Part shown: in pieces, positions 5,923-21,669 of the stretch
Numbering within the stretch: position 1 is the first letter of the stretch
Layout of the letters: the number at the start of each line of letters is the position of its first letter
IMG/VR virus record: IMGVR_UViG_3300049217_000106
Span: 1-30,600 of that record
Length of the DNA: 30,600 nt
DNA from: a virus
Reading direction: 5' to 3' (one strand)
The notes under the pieces: model-generated
Database searches by the model: none
The model's input: the letters and a program-made list of their open reading frames with translations, nothing else
What the model was told of the DNA's origin: nothing
Position numbers and translations under genes: made by a program

Positions 5923-6201
5923 ATGGATTTATATCAATACATGTCCTTACGAAAAGTACAGGATCGAAAATTTCGCGACAGTTATTTTGCAAAAGAACTA
6001 GGATTACATAGACAATACTTGTCTCAGCTCAAAAATGGTCACGTGAAGCCGAGTGTTGACTTAGCGAAACGCATTGAAGAAAAGACGAACGGACAAGTTA
6101 CAGCATGTGAGCTTTTGAACATCAGCAACAATCAAATAAAACTAAGCGAAGCGTTGGAAATATGTTTACCGAAGAAAAAATTGGAGACAATTTCTAAATA
6201 A
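5923..6201 (+). CDS. Cro/YdaS-like helix-turn-helix regulator
   Basis: A 92-residue DNA-binding protein. Residues about 18-50 read as a helix-turn-helix: SYFAKELGLHRQYLSQLKNG, where FAKELGL and QYLSQLKNG are the two helices, followed by PSVDLAKRIEEKTNG, the classic third/fourth helix of Cro and YdaS-type repressors. The C-terminal 25 residues are basic. AAGGGGAGA gives a strong ribosome-binding site. Its position as first rightward gene opposite the recombination operon is that of a phage early switch repressor. The likely operator is the AACATGTT palindrome upstream (inference). No integrase is visible, so a role in lysogeny is not supported. Confidence 0.8.
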   Translation: MDLYQYMSLRKVQDRKFRDSYFAKELGLHRQYLSQLKNGHVKPSVDLAKRIEEKTNGQVTACELLNISNNQIKLSEALEICLPKKKLETISK

Positions 6202-6539: not shown

Positions 6540-6618
6540 CCGAGATGGAAGATTAGTAAGAGAAGGTTTTTTTTATGGAATATTTGTCATGTTTTTATTG
6601 TGGTACTTTTTTGGATAA
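6529..6618 (+). CDS. Possible 29-residue membrane miniprotein
   Basis: The ATG overlaps the end of the frameshifted ORF. The product has a basic N-terminus (MKISRDGRLVREG) and one hydrophobic segment FFYGIFVMFLLWYFFG. No good ribosome-binding site, so it depends on coupling. Listed because the basic-then-hydrophobic layout is typical of small phage membrane proteins. Confidence 0.25.
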   Translation: MKISRDGRLVREGFFYGIFVMFLLWYFFG

Positions 6619-6900
6619 AAAGGCAGGACGTCTCGCGACGTCCCATGATTTCGCTTGGCTTAAAAGTTAAAGCTAGCTACATTGACTTTTGTTCTTGCGT
6701 AGATAACTTGGCGGTTTCCGCATAGAACAGAATGACTTGACCTGACAAATCCGAATATATCATGTAAGGGTTGCCAGGTCAAGCGTTCATTAAACAAAAC
6801 CGCCGGAAAGCAGCTTTATTAATGAATTCTCAATCAAGAGACACTCAAGATAACAAGTCCCAACATTATTCGCAACATTTTTTTCTAAAGGCGGTTTAAC
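6619..6900 (+). promoter_or_regulatory. Structured leader upstream of replication gene
   Basis: A gene-free stretch with nested inverted repeats. GGCGGTTT (6710-6717) pairs with AAACCGCC (6797-6804). Inside it AATGA plus CTTGACCTG (6731-6744) pair with CAGGTCAAG and TCATT (6775-6791, with a CGT bulge). A third copy of GGCGGTTT at 6890-6897 forms part of the ribosome-binding region of the gene at 6901, so AAACCGCC has two possible partners. A smaller palindrome GGACGT/ACGTCC lies at 6627-6644. TTGACC (6737) with TATCAT (6758) resembles a promoter with short 15-base spacing. It may be an RNA switch, an origin, or both. Confidence 0.5.
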
Positions 6901-7734
6901 ATGACGCTTTTTAGAGTAAATCATAATAAAAATTATACAATTATAAACAACACAATTTGTAAAGATAACCGTCTTTCCTGGAAAGCTAAAGGGATTTTTC
7001 TTTACGCCTTTAGTCGACCTGATACCTGGCAGTTTTTTCTTGAAGATTTAATTAAACAATCCACAGATGGGAAAGATTCCGTTAGTGCTGGATTAAGAGA
7101 ATTAGTCGAAGCAGGATACTTAAAGCGTGAGAGAATAAGGAAAGCAGATGGTACTTTTGAAAGAGGGGCTATATGGGACTTTTTTGAAACTCCACAAGAA
7201 TTAAAAGAATTTGTACCAGAAACGGAAAATCCAGTTTTGGATAATCCAGTCTTGGAAAAACCGCCACTAATAAGTACTGATCCTGTAATAAGTACTGAAA
7301 AGAACAGCAACAGTGCTGTTGTTTTTTTTGATTGTTTGAAAGATTTAGATATACCCATTGCTGACAAAATTGCTATTTCAGCCACTAACCCTGAATCTCG
7401 CGTCAAACACGCTGTGGCTTTCGCTACGCATCCCGAGACTAAGTTTACTAAAGGACTTGTCCAATGCCTCAAATGGGCCTGTAACGAACAGCCTGCATTA
7501 CCTAAGGGAAAAGGCGATATAATCCAAGAAAATAAGGCTTATGCGCAACATCTTGTAAATATAATCAAACCTATTCAACATGTTAGTTTTGAAGCACTTA
7601 ATGCATCCGTAGAAATTCACTATATTATAGGTCAAATGGAACCTTTTGTATTAAGTTATCATGAAAATGCTTTTAAAGAACAGCTACATAATGGTTTAAG
7701 AAAATTCGGTTACAAAGTGGATAATTTAAAATGA
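6901..7734 (+). CDS. Replication initiation-like protein with winged-helix N-terminus
   Basis: A 277-residue protein. Residues 1-100 match the winged-helix domain of phage replication organisers: an N-terminal strand FRVNHNKNYTIINN, then LSWKAKGIFLYAFSRPDTWQF, a recognition-helix region STDGKDSVSAGLRELVEAGYLKRER, and a beta wing with Arg and Gly. A Pro/Thr/Ser-rich linker covers roughly 100-135. The C-terminal part (about 140-277) is helical, plausibly the origin or helicase-loader contact domain, but I do not recognise it. Members bind the origin and recruit the helicase. The structured leader immediately upstream fits regulation or an origin. The stop overlaps the next ATG (ATGA). Confidence 0.7.
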   Translation: MTLFRVNHNKNYTIINNTICKDNRLSWKAKGIFLYAFSRPDTWQFFLEDLIKQSTDGKDSVSAGLRELVEAGYLKRERIRKADGTFERGAIWDFFETPQELKEFVPETENPVLDNPVLEKPPLISTDPVISTEKNSNSAVVFFDCLKDLDIPIADKIAISATNPESRVKHAVAFATHPETKFTKGLVQCLKWACNEQPALPKGKGDIIQENKAYAQHLVNIIKPIQHVSFEALNASVEIHYIIGQMEPFVLSYHENAFKEQLHNGLRKFGYKVDNLK

Positions 7735-19070: not shown

Positions 19071-21669
19071 TAACGGTAGCCCACTTAAAACTTTTGGTAA
19101 TTGACTTGGAAGCCCGACAGGGTGACAAGGCGGAAGATATGCAAACCATACAGCTAGATTATAATCAATTATTAGATTTAGTGATTGATTTAAAGATAAA
19201 TGAAAAAGAATGCTATCCTTTGGATACGTATAAATTTACTGATTATGTATGGAAAAAATATCACCGTGAGAGACTAAACCCAGAAGGCGCATTATGCGCA
19301 TGTGATAGTCCGAACAGCGACCATAAATAAAATCGCTGAGAGGGGAATAACAAGACCCTCCGCCTAGAAATAGGTCATAAAAGTAACAGATGTACCCCAT
19401 CACTATGGATCAGCAAGCAGGCGATATTCTACGTAGACGTAGATATAACAACCTCAAAACAGCTCCGGTGCCTTTGGGCAATGGAATTGTTAATCCTGCA
19501 GCTCAACAGCTCACCGCACTAGACATCGACGCAAGGATCGACTGGTACGGAACTTACATGATACTACAAGAGCAAGTTATGCTCATAAACGAAGACCCTA
19601 GAGAACAATTGCAATTAGCTGCTTAACAATTTAACTTGTTCCTAAAACACGATATTGATATACTTCCTTTTTAAATAGGAGGTTGTCATGCAAGAGAAAG
19701 AATTAATGAGTTATTTATCAGGATTAATGGACGGAGATGGAAGTTTTACGATTGGCAAATTAAAAAATGCTAGTCGTTCACCTTTATATTATCCATTAAT
19801 ACAATTTGGTTTCCAAAAAAAGGATATCGTTAATATTTTTATGGAAAAGTTCGGTGGTTCATTCACTGAAATAGATCCTAAAAAAGACAAACGATACAAA
19901 CAATCTTTTTTCTCGTGGAGACTAAGAAGTTCTGATAATGTTATCCCTGTTCTTGAAAAACTCATCGAATTTCTTATCTTAAAAAAGGAAAGAGCGGAAT
20001 ATCTTTTAAGTTTCTGCAAAAATTTTTCTTTCAAACGAGGATTGATGGTTGACAAAGATATTCTTGTCGAAAGAGAAAAAGCATATTTAAAAATGGGTCA
20101 GATGAACGATTGCAGGATATTTACTGGTTTAGAAAAAACCTATAGACCTGTCAAAAATGAATCATGTGCTTATTTTTGGTCTTATGTAGCAGGAATTATA
20201 GATTCTGACGGTTCTTTTTCAATTAAAAAGCAAAAATATCAATATGGTCAAAGATATAGTGCCGTTATCAGTATTGATATGGTAGATCCTAAATCTATTG
20301 ATTATATAGCATCTAAAACAACATTTGGACGAGTTGAAGCAAATAAAATGAAAGCTTGTACAAATGGAATTTGTTATCGTCTTTCGATATGCAAAAAAGA
20401 TGATGTTATTGCTTTTTTAGAAAATGTAATTCCCTTTTTACGTGTTAAAAAAGAACAAGCTAAAACCCTTCAAGAATTTTGCTCAAACTGGAAAAATACT
20501 GGCTATTGTAAAGCTGGTGTACCACTTGAAGAAATGGCATTTCGAGAAGAATGCCATCAAAAGATTAAACAGTTAAACAAATATGGGGTCTATAAACCGT
20601 CGGTAATTGACTCGGAACTCCAAAAGCAGGACAACGAGGGCCAAGCAGGAAACGTGCAGGCTGAACGACTAAACCCGATGGACTCGAAAGAGTGTGTAAT
20701 AGTCTGAACACGGACAATAGCTAATGAAATCCGTGAGGGTGGGTCGAAGAACCCGCCCCGCCTAGAAATAGGTCATAAAGTAACAGATAGGTATTAAACA
20801 GTGCAGTGTCCGTTTTAGGCCAGTCTCTTCGTGAAACGGAAGACCAATTGGCTCGTAGTATGATGGAGGGTGGTGCTCCACCAGTTAATTGTACCTCGGG
20901 TACAAACGGTAGAGTTGCCGTTTTAAAACCTTCTCTGATTGAGGTGGAACTCTGTTTTTATGTAACAGACAACACTGCGCAAGCCGTAATGGCAGCGTAA
21001 ACGACTGAGTGAGAAGGATTGAGTTATGTAACGCGATGTAACTCAATATGCGACAGTCTGATCTCATAGGCGACTATGAGAGGAATCTCCGAAGAGGGAT
21101 TCCCGCCCATGATATAGGGTCAACAAAGTAACAGGGGTTAGGACAACCCAACTAATATCACTCCATTGGATTGCAGCAAAGCCGTCCGCTTATTGCGCAC
21201 TGCAAATGCCCAATTCATCATGGATATGATAGAAGGTGAATTGAAATTTGGAACTGCTCCAGTGAGGATGGCTTTTTTTGGTTTGACTCATACTAATATG
21301 AGTGCCGACTTAGACCAGATGGTTGGATTTATCAACGTTGCGAATTACGCAAATAACTCCAATTTGCTTATGAGCGAATGGGGCAGCGTTCGAAATTTGC
21401 GTTTCTTATTGTCTTCAGTCGGAAGCGTTTCCGTTGGTGCTTCTGCCTTGGGTGCGGATATTTATAATATCTTCATTCCTGGTCAGGAAAGCTATGACAT
21501 GATTGACTTGGATGGCTATAGTGCACAATTCATCTATGCGCCGCCTGAGATCGCATCGCCACAATTAAGACTGTATCAGACAGCGGGTTGGAAGATGGCG
21601 CAAGTATTCAACATCACGAATACTTCTTGGATCATTAATCTACGCTGCACACTTGCAGTGGCTATTTAA
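18963..21669 (+). CDS. Major capsid protein, N4 gp56 family, split by three group I introns (join 18963..19070, 19393..19599, 20791..20910, 21142..21669)
   Basis: Joining the four exons gives 320 residues with no stop. The N-terminal KLLARPMPDLIHTTLG joins YPITMDQQAGDILRRRRYNN, giving the family's loss-free pattern of a helix, L-I-H-T-x-x-G, a strand, then a basic R-R-Y. Exon 2 ends INEDP and exon 3 continues VLNSAVSVLGQSLRETEDQL, the family's E-D-P-V-L-(x6)-LG-x-(x7) motif. Exon 3 ends CTSGTNG and exon 4 resumes DNPTNITPLDCSKAVRLLRT. Exon 4 holds the rest of the shell fold. AAAGGT precedes the ATG. Without splicing, exon 1 stops one codon into intron 1. Family from motif recognition; splice sites from P1/P10 pairing. 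Confidence 0.85.
19071..19392 (+). ncRNA. Group I intron 1 in capsid gene (322 nt)
   Basis: P1: exon TGGGT with GCCCA (19079-19083), U-G at the splice site. P10: GGTA upstream of that G pairs with TACC at 19393. P3: CTTTTGGT (19091-19098) with ACC[C]AGAAG (19278-19286). P4: CTTG/CAAG (19105-19108, 19126-19129) with a CCC-GACA-GGG hairpin between. P7: GACTA/TAGTC (19272-19276, 19306-19310). The tail has GAGGG/CCCTC and CCTA-GAAA-TAGG hairpins, then GTAACAG; last base G19392. No P2. A small ORF fills the loop between P6 strands. Confidence 0.88.
19139..19330 (+). CDS. Possible intron-encoded 63-residue ORF
   Basis: Lies in the P6 insertion of intron 1 with AAGG eight bases upstream. MQTIQLDYNQLLDLVIDLKI and a short KFTDYVWKKYH segment appear protein-like, then RERLNPE and CDSPNSDHK are translations of the P7/P8 strands. 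No endonuclease motif (LAGLIDADG, GIY-YIG, HNH) is present, so it may be a degraded endonuclease ORF or a chance frame. Confidence 0.3.
   Translation: MQTIQLDYNQLLDLVIDLKINEKECYPLDTYKFTDYVWKKYHRERLNPEGALCACDSPNSDHK
19393..19599 (+). CDS. Capsid gene exon 2 (69 codons)
   Basis: Encodes YPITMDQQAG through MLINEDP. Start fixed by P10 with intron 1 and end fixed by AGACCCT pairing with GGGGTCT of intron 2. Reading past 19599 gives 8 extra codons to a stop at 19626. Confidence 0.85.
19600..20790 (+). ncRNA. Group I intron 2 in capsid gene, with homing endonuclease (1191 nt)
   Basis: P1: AGACCCT (19593-19599) with GGGGTCT (20585-20591), 7 bp with U-G; the endonuclease gene lies in the P1 loop. 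P10: ATAT before that IGS pairs with GTATT at 20791. P3: CCGTCGGT (20597-20604) with ACC[C]GATGG. P4: CTCG/CGAG. P7: GACTA/TAGTC (20667-20671, 20700-20704). P8: GACTC-GAAA-GAGT. The tail shares CGCCTAGAAATAGGTCATAA with intron 1; last base G20790. P3 and P4 differ from intron 1 by compensating changes. Confidence 0.9.
19688..20707 (+). CDS. LAGLIDADG homing endonuclease, intron 2-encoded
   Basis: A 339-residue two-motif LAGLIDADG protein: LSGLMDGDG at residues 10-18 and VAGIIDSDG at 167-175, both with the catalytic Asp, so it can act as a monomer cutting an asymmetric intronless capsid site. Each motif is followed by SF and a beta-rich half-domain; the halves look like a duplicated fold. AGGAGG lies six bases before the ATG. 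From about residue 297 (NKYGVYKPS) the frame passes through IGS, P3-P8 and ends within P7 (SKECVIV), so the last ~45 codons double as ribozyme core. Such enzymes mobilise the intron into empty alleles. No sign of inactivation. Confidence 0.93.
   Translation: MQEKELMSYLSGLMDGDGSFTIGKLKNASRSPLYYPLIQFGFQKKDIVNIFMEKFGGSFTEIDPKKDKRYKQSFFSWRLRSSDNVIPVLEKLIEFLILKKERAEYLLSFCKNFSFKRGLMVDKDILVEREKAYLKMGQMNDCRIFTGLEKTYRPVKNESCAYFWSYVAGIIDSDGSFSIKKQKYQYGQRYSAVISIDMVDPKSIDYIASKTTFGRVEANKMKACTNGICYRLSICKKDDVIAFLENVIPFLRVKKEQAKTLQEFCSNWKNTGYCKAGVPLEEMAFREECHQKIKQLNKYGVYKPSVIDSELQKQDNEGQAGNVQAERLNPMDSKECVIV
20791..20910 (+). CDS. Capsid gene exon 3 (40 codons)
   Basis: Encodes VLNSAVSVLGQSLRETEDQL through CTSGTNG. 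The boundary at 20791 is set by the five-base P10 (GTATT) and gives the family motif E-D-P-V-L-N across the junction. It ends at GGT before AGAGTT of intron 3. Confidence 0.85.
20911..21141 (+). ncRNA. Group I intron 3 in capsid gene (231 nt, no ORF)
   Basis: P1: exon AAACGGT (20904-20910) with GCCGTTT (20917-20923), 7 bp including U-G. P10: GTT before that G pairs with GAC at 21142. P3: CCTTCTC (20929-20935) with GAGAAGG (21011-21017). P4: GGTG/CACT. P7: GACTG/CAGTC (21003-21007, 21054-21058), a compensated change from GACTA/TAGTC. P8: ATTGAGTTA/TAACTCAAT, 9 bp. A CTCATAG-GCGA-CTATGAG hairpin follows. Tail GTCAACAAAGTAACAG then GGGTTAG; last base G21141. The shortest, probably most streamlined copy. 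Confidence 0.9.
21142..21669 (+). CDS. Capsid gene exon 4 (175 codons and stop)
   Basis: Encodes DNPTNITPLDCSKAVRLLRT to the C-terminus TLAVAI. The codon just before 21142 in this frame is TAG, so the exon cannot extend left. It holds the region that aligns with the stray capsid fragment at 8063 (TAPVRMAFFGLTHTNM). Confidence 0.85.
   Translation, partial: DNPTNITPLDCSKAVRLLRTANAQFIMDMIEGELKFGTAPVRMAFFGLTHTNMSADLDQMVGFINVANYANNSNLLMSEWGSVRNLRFLLSSVGSVSVGASALGADIYNIFIPGQESYDMIDLDGYSAQFIYAPPEIASPQLRLYQTAGWKMAQVFNITNTSWIINLRCTLAVAI

Follow-up and report, generated by a model that had tools for sequence, protein, structure and literature searches.

The window analysed here is a 30.6-kb stretch of viral DNA (30,600 nucleotides), a tailed-phage record that encodes a P22-like portal according to profile and domain matches. 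RecE/RecT-type recombination genes are present on the minus strand, and a rightward operon headed by a Cro-like helix-turn-helix gene leads to rep, which codes for the replication initiator (Table 1). The rep product matches PHROG replication initiation proteins (4e-24) as well as the HTH_36 domain. A portal search recovered 76 relatives, and the longer relative records have the common gene order exo(-), recT(-), cro-like(+), small gene, rep(+) and RusA-like, the position of rep after the cro-like gene being common to the window and its relatives. No close relatives were found in IMG/VR and in bacterial and archaeal genomes using the rep sequence, or in bacterial and archaeal genomes using the portal, and DNA similarity to cultured phages gave nothing beyond a 54-nt match in rep.

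Two further observations concern the genome and its group. Between structural genes there is an ORF (19688-20707) that resembles LAGLIDADG homing endonucleases, and 11 of the fetched relatives have matches to it. A ParA-like ATPase is encoded in two relatives, L276 (G003) and L277 (G019), and no tyrosine integrase was found in 20 records; judging from their gene content, some members of the group could be phage-plasmids.

The rep gene itself contains two adjacent 15-nt repeats (7224-7253) and two 13-nt repeats with a spacing of 18 (7268-7298). These are a candidate origin within the initiator gene, alike in placement to the origins inside lambda O and pSK41 rep.

Table 1. Features in and around the rep leader of the window.
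Feature	Position	Strand	Remarks
Cro-like HTH gene	5923..6201	+	Heads rightward operon; profile matches and same place in relatives
Predicted antisense RNA, about 130 nt	6617..6747	-	Inferred from promoter and terminator; covers U, not A
Putative intrinsic terminator of antisense RNA	6624..6645	-	Sequence signal, followed by CCTTTTTATC
U, 5' arm or pre-emptor, GGCGGTTT	6710..6717	+	Within stretch covered by predicted antisense RNA
Bulged inner hairpin of ON domain	6730..6788	+	Pairs preserved despite letter changes in the homologous leaders L262 and L275
Predicted sigma-70-like promoter, TTGACC-17-TATATT	6754..6782	-	Extended -10 TG; predicted start near 6747; p 0.015
A, switch strand, AAACCGCC	6797..6804	+	Pairs with U or R; outside predicted antisense RNA
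25-aa ORF	6822..6899	+	Probable relic of N-terminus of L262-like rep, by sequence comparison; stop 1 nt before rep ATG
R, GGCGGTTT	6890..6897	+	Overlaps rep RBS (AAAGGCGG)
rep, replication initiator	6901..7734	+	RepA/HTH_36-type N-terminus; regulated gene

Alternative pairings in the rep leader

The first-pass annotation of this DNA had described three 8-mers in front of rep, the middle one (A) able to pair either with an upstream copy (U) or with a copy at the ribosome-binding site (R), and all three lie exactly where it had placed them. The bulged stem that it counted as 14 bp within the upstream domain is also present, with arms at 6736-6748 and 6771-6783 showing 92% complementarity over 13 nt. 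An arrangement of this kind (a word, its complement and the word again) with at least 5 G+C of 8 was absent from all 3000 dinucleotide shuffles of the leader (6600-6903); irrespective of composition it was seen in 0.4% of shuffles, and with the second copy at the RBS in 0.07%. The leader fold is more stable than those of all 200 shuffles (z -3.7 and -4.1).

Folding predicts that the U:A and A:R pairings are nearly isoenergetic. In growing transcripts the ON pairing (6710:6804) has a probability of 0.82-0.99 before the RBS is transcribed, and once the RBS is made it competes with the OFF pairing (6797:6897), which covers the RBS of rep, the balance varying with transcript length. Compared with 36 other leaders, the window leader offers the best complementarity to the rep RBS of the window (rank 0 of 36).

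The 8-mer occurs four times in the window, with all copies falling within 550 bp and the fourth, in reverse complement (AAACCGCC), at 7258-7265 inside rep, where it stands between the 15-nt and the 13-nt repeats. This clustering, the origin-like repeats around one copy and the overlap of the inner repeat with a minus-strand -35 (see below) are what a DNA-level function would lead one to expect, with Rep or the Cro-like protein binding the copies and the inverted repeat serving as an operator or belonging to an origin. We regard this as very unlikely, given that there is no extended consensus around the copies, that other leaders have the same layout built from other words with no common box, and that the enrichment described below is specific for pairing with the RBS. 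As a search pattern, AAACCGCC-N70-100-GGCGGTTT was rejected as too unspecific, with at least 120 such stretches in viral contigs.

A predicted leftward promoter and terminator upstream of rep

The minus strand of the leader carries signals for a promoter and an intrinsic terminator (Table 1), a pair that is new relative to the first-pass annotation, which dealt with plus-strand pairings. The promoter is situated in the inner hairpin of the ON domain, and from the pair we infer a short leftward RNA antisense to the 5' half of the leader and confined to the intergenic stretch.

Both signals recur across a set of 35 rep leaders taken from syntenic uncultivated phages. A strong minus-strand terminator no more than 300 nt upstream of rep is present in 27 of the 35, versus 21 of 253 starts of other genes in these genomes (Fisher p 4e-18), and is absent in eight; strong plus-strand terminators are found in only three leaders, the window not among them. 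Between terminator and rep, sigma-70-like promoters are enriched relative to shuffles on the minus strand (combined p 5e-10) and not on the plus strand (combined p 0.74), as judged by a scan with approximate E. coli weights, whose sigma-70 consensus may not fit the host. Predicted promoters thus give no support to a transcription start downstream of 6804, the circumstance that the first-pass annotation had held to speak against its switch. The layout predicts leftward RNAs mostly of 55-130 nt, reaching about 175 nt, with no separate rep promoter.

Eight leaders (L207, L213, L226, L234, L245, L260, L265 and L269) have a second minus-strand terminator farther upstream, mostly 115-165 nt from the first. 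It may be a backup terminator or, alternatively, the end of a second small RNA.

Recurrence of the layout in other leaders

In each leader we looked for a strand A able to pair with the RBS and for a second partner U of that strand farther upstream, with shuffles as the null. Over the 35 leaders, complementarity to the RBS has a combined p of 7e-8 and the second partner of the same strand a combined p of 2e-11, values that, like the other combined p values given here, are somewhat inflated by the relatedness of the leaders; for the window leader the two values are p1 0.007 and p2 0.007. Both tests give p < 0.05 in seven of the 35 rep leaders and in two of 177 control gene starts preceded by 110 nt or more of non-coding DNA (Fisher p 5e-5). 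Moreover, RBSs fit their own leaders better than the leaders of other phages (KS p 2e-6).

The words themselves are unrelated from leader to leader, as illustrated by TTAGCACCTCATGC with TTATGAGGTGCTAT in L245 and CCATAATAGATTTCTCCTTA with AAAGGAGAAAAATTATGT in L226, and likewise by L252 and L218. Nine leaders can be mutually aligned (L229, L254, L238, L234, L245, L260, L285, L286 and L288), and in all nine both the U:A pairing (-13 to -20 kcal/mol) and the A:R pairing (-13 to -20 kcal/mol) are kept while letters have changed on both sides, for instance U GGTG with A CACC in L245 against U GATGC with A GCATC in L260. In these nine, the comparison of homologous leaders proposed in the first-pass annotation as a check for covariation comes out in favor of both pairings. 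In L262 and L275, the nearest homologues of the window leader, the inner hairpin is kept with several compensating changes, as judged by eye.

The claim of a translational switch, in which one strand has two exclusive partners, one of them the rep RBS, is supported, and the design recurs in syntenic leaders; the suggestion that it might be a ligand riboswitch is not. A two-state leader that needs no antisense RNA and responds to a ligand or to Rep, as a riboswitch or a protein-sensing translational switch does, would share the mutually exclusive pairings, which are real, and is nonetheless quite unlikely. Rfam 15 at the gathering threshold gives 0 hits in the window, in agreement with the earlier remark that the domain resembles no known riboswitch, and the 35 leaders contain no shared box or conserved aptamer-like core, the layout being kept with unrelated sequences. 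The conserved features are instead the minus-strand promoter and terminator, and because these are conserved and an aptamer-like core is not, the sequences point to an antisense RNA, and not a ligand, as the most likely trigger.

A leftward RNA could also act as in lambda, by hitting the mRNA of the preceding gene or interfering with rightward transcription, with the RBS pairings being secondary. The map position is identical to that of lambda pO/oop, and in lambda rightward transcription is lowered by pO (PMC3985674). We nevertheless consider this explanation unlikely, as these leaders have RBS complementarity and the lambda O leader, put through the same comparison, has none (p 0.69) and no alternative RBS pairing.

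Annotations of 12 cultured phages with related Rep proteins show that in most of them rep directly abuts or overlaps the upstream gene, which leaves no room for a leader; the leader therefore belongs to the phage group rather than to the Rep family.

The start of rep

The rep genes of L262 and L275 start at the equivalent of window position 6822, with the RBS in the 3' arm, such that antisense binding could be opposite in sign in these phages. The 25-aa ORF at this position in the window matches the L262/L275 rep start, and for this reason the start of the rep gene has probably been replaced in the window. The ORF stop next to the rep ATG makes translational coupling possible, and control in the window may have two layers. 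These points make up the main uncertainty about the sign of the antisense effect in the window phage.

The homology of 6822 to these starts and the stop 1 nt before the rep ATG also suit a reading in which 6822 is the regulated start (RBS GGAAAG, 6805-6810), rep is coupled to it translationally and the 8-mer at 6890 is incidental. We think this improbable: a word, its complement and the word again with the last copy at the RBS is rare by chance, and the rep RBS ranks its own leader ahead of all others.

Modelled effect of antisense binding

Allowing a margin of 8 nt, the antisense RNA is predicted to begin between U and A in 11 of 14 leaders, which would put U within the stretch bound by the RNA and keep A available for pairing. 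When the stretch covered by the predicted RNA was blocked in a model and the energy needed to open the RBS compared with that in shuffled leaders, the opening cost rose in most of 25 leaders, by a mean of +4.2 kcal/mol versus -0.5 kcal/mol in shuffles (combined p 4e-13), an effect that persists on 19 non-redundant leaders with near relatives dropped (p 1e-9). For the window alone the change has the same direction; at +1.6 kcal/mol (p 0.23) it is small and falls short of significance, since OFF already competes in the free leader.

A model for control of the initiator

In the model that we consider likely, translation of the replication initiator is switched in this region by a predicted antisense RNA encoded in cis. 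The rightward operon, starting before the cro-like gene, would be transcribed through the leader, and in the emerging transcript A would pair with U and leave the rep RBS free (ON). The leftward promoter within the domain would give rise to an RNA ending at 6645-6617, which would bind the 5' half of the leader, occupying U and freeing A; the freed A would then pair with R and close the RBS (OFF). Because every genome copy would make the antisense RNA, initiator synthesis would be limited as phage copies rise.

There is perhaps an even chance that the leaders represent a large class, not described before, of phage antisense RNAs that occupy the position of lambda oop, diverge fast in sequence and control replication by flipping a switch that hides the RBS of the initiator mRNA. 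Incompatibility-like specificity would then differ from phage to phage, and swaps of the N-terminal domain of the initiator would leave the leader module in place.

Comparison with known systems

The position of the leader recalls lambda oop (pO-tO), with signals for a short leftward RNA and its own terminator just before the initiator gene and behind the cro operon gene. Lambda OOP targets cII mRNA and leaves the stability of O/P mRNA unchanged; what pO does in replication has been called obscure and explained by interference (PMC3985674). The window has no cII-size ORF between its cro-like gene and rep to which the predicted RNA could be antisense. For lambda the purpose of a leftward promoter just ahead of the initiator gene stayed obscure, and the switch proposed here offers a concrete hypothesis for its retention in phages.

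Among phages, extrachromosomal mycobacterial prophages have RNA-based replication using an initiator RNA and no Rep protein (PMC7157519); they are alike in having plasmid-type RNA control, and unlike in having no rep RBS switch. No phage example of an RBS-hiding antisense switch was found in the open-licence literature.

The closest parallels are from plasmids, where a pre-emptor and an RBS-hiding hairpin under antisense-RNA copy control are already known. In pSK41, a counter-transcribed RNAI of ~83 nt is complementary to the part of the rep leader that precedes the translation start, and its binding is proposed to induce an RBS-hiding stem-loop (PMC5703833). The window leader would resemble this RNAI-rep arrangement of the staphylococcal RepA_N plasmids pSK41 and pSK1 in that a counter-transcribed RNA, here predicted, would be directed against the rep leader upstream of the RBS. 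HTH_36, the domain of the 'phage-like' initiator of the pSK41-like plasmid pPR9, is also present in the window Rep. Unlike pSK41, the window is from a tailed phage with a P22-type portal and a long operon behind a cro-like gene, and no rep promoter of its own was detected; the likeness is one of layout, the antisense RNA being predicted here from sequence signals.

In pT181, one strand pairs either with an upstream pre-emptor or with a strand of the inhibitory hairpin, and the antisense RNA decides between them, RNAI acting mainly via transcription termination (PMC5703833). Strand A would be shared in the same manner between pre-emptor and inhibitory pairing, whereas the OFF pairing covers the RBS here, and strong plus-strand terminators were found in only three of the 35 leaders and not in the window. 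By analogy the leader would function like plasmid antisense copy control, and we claim membership in no single plasmid family. If this is true, a large group of uncultivated tailed phages meters its own replication as plasmids do, and superinfection incompatibility is predicted between relatives with the same RNA. The predicted antisense RNA would then belong to a copy-number brake of plasmid type in a viral genome, with a layout found in dozens of unrelated-looking relatives.
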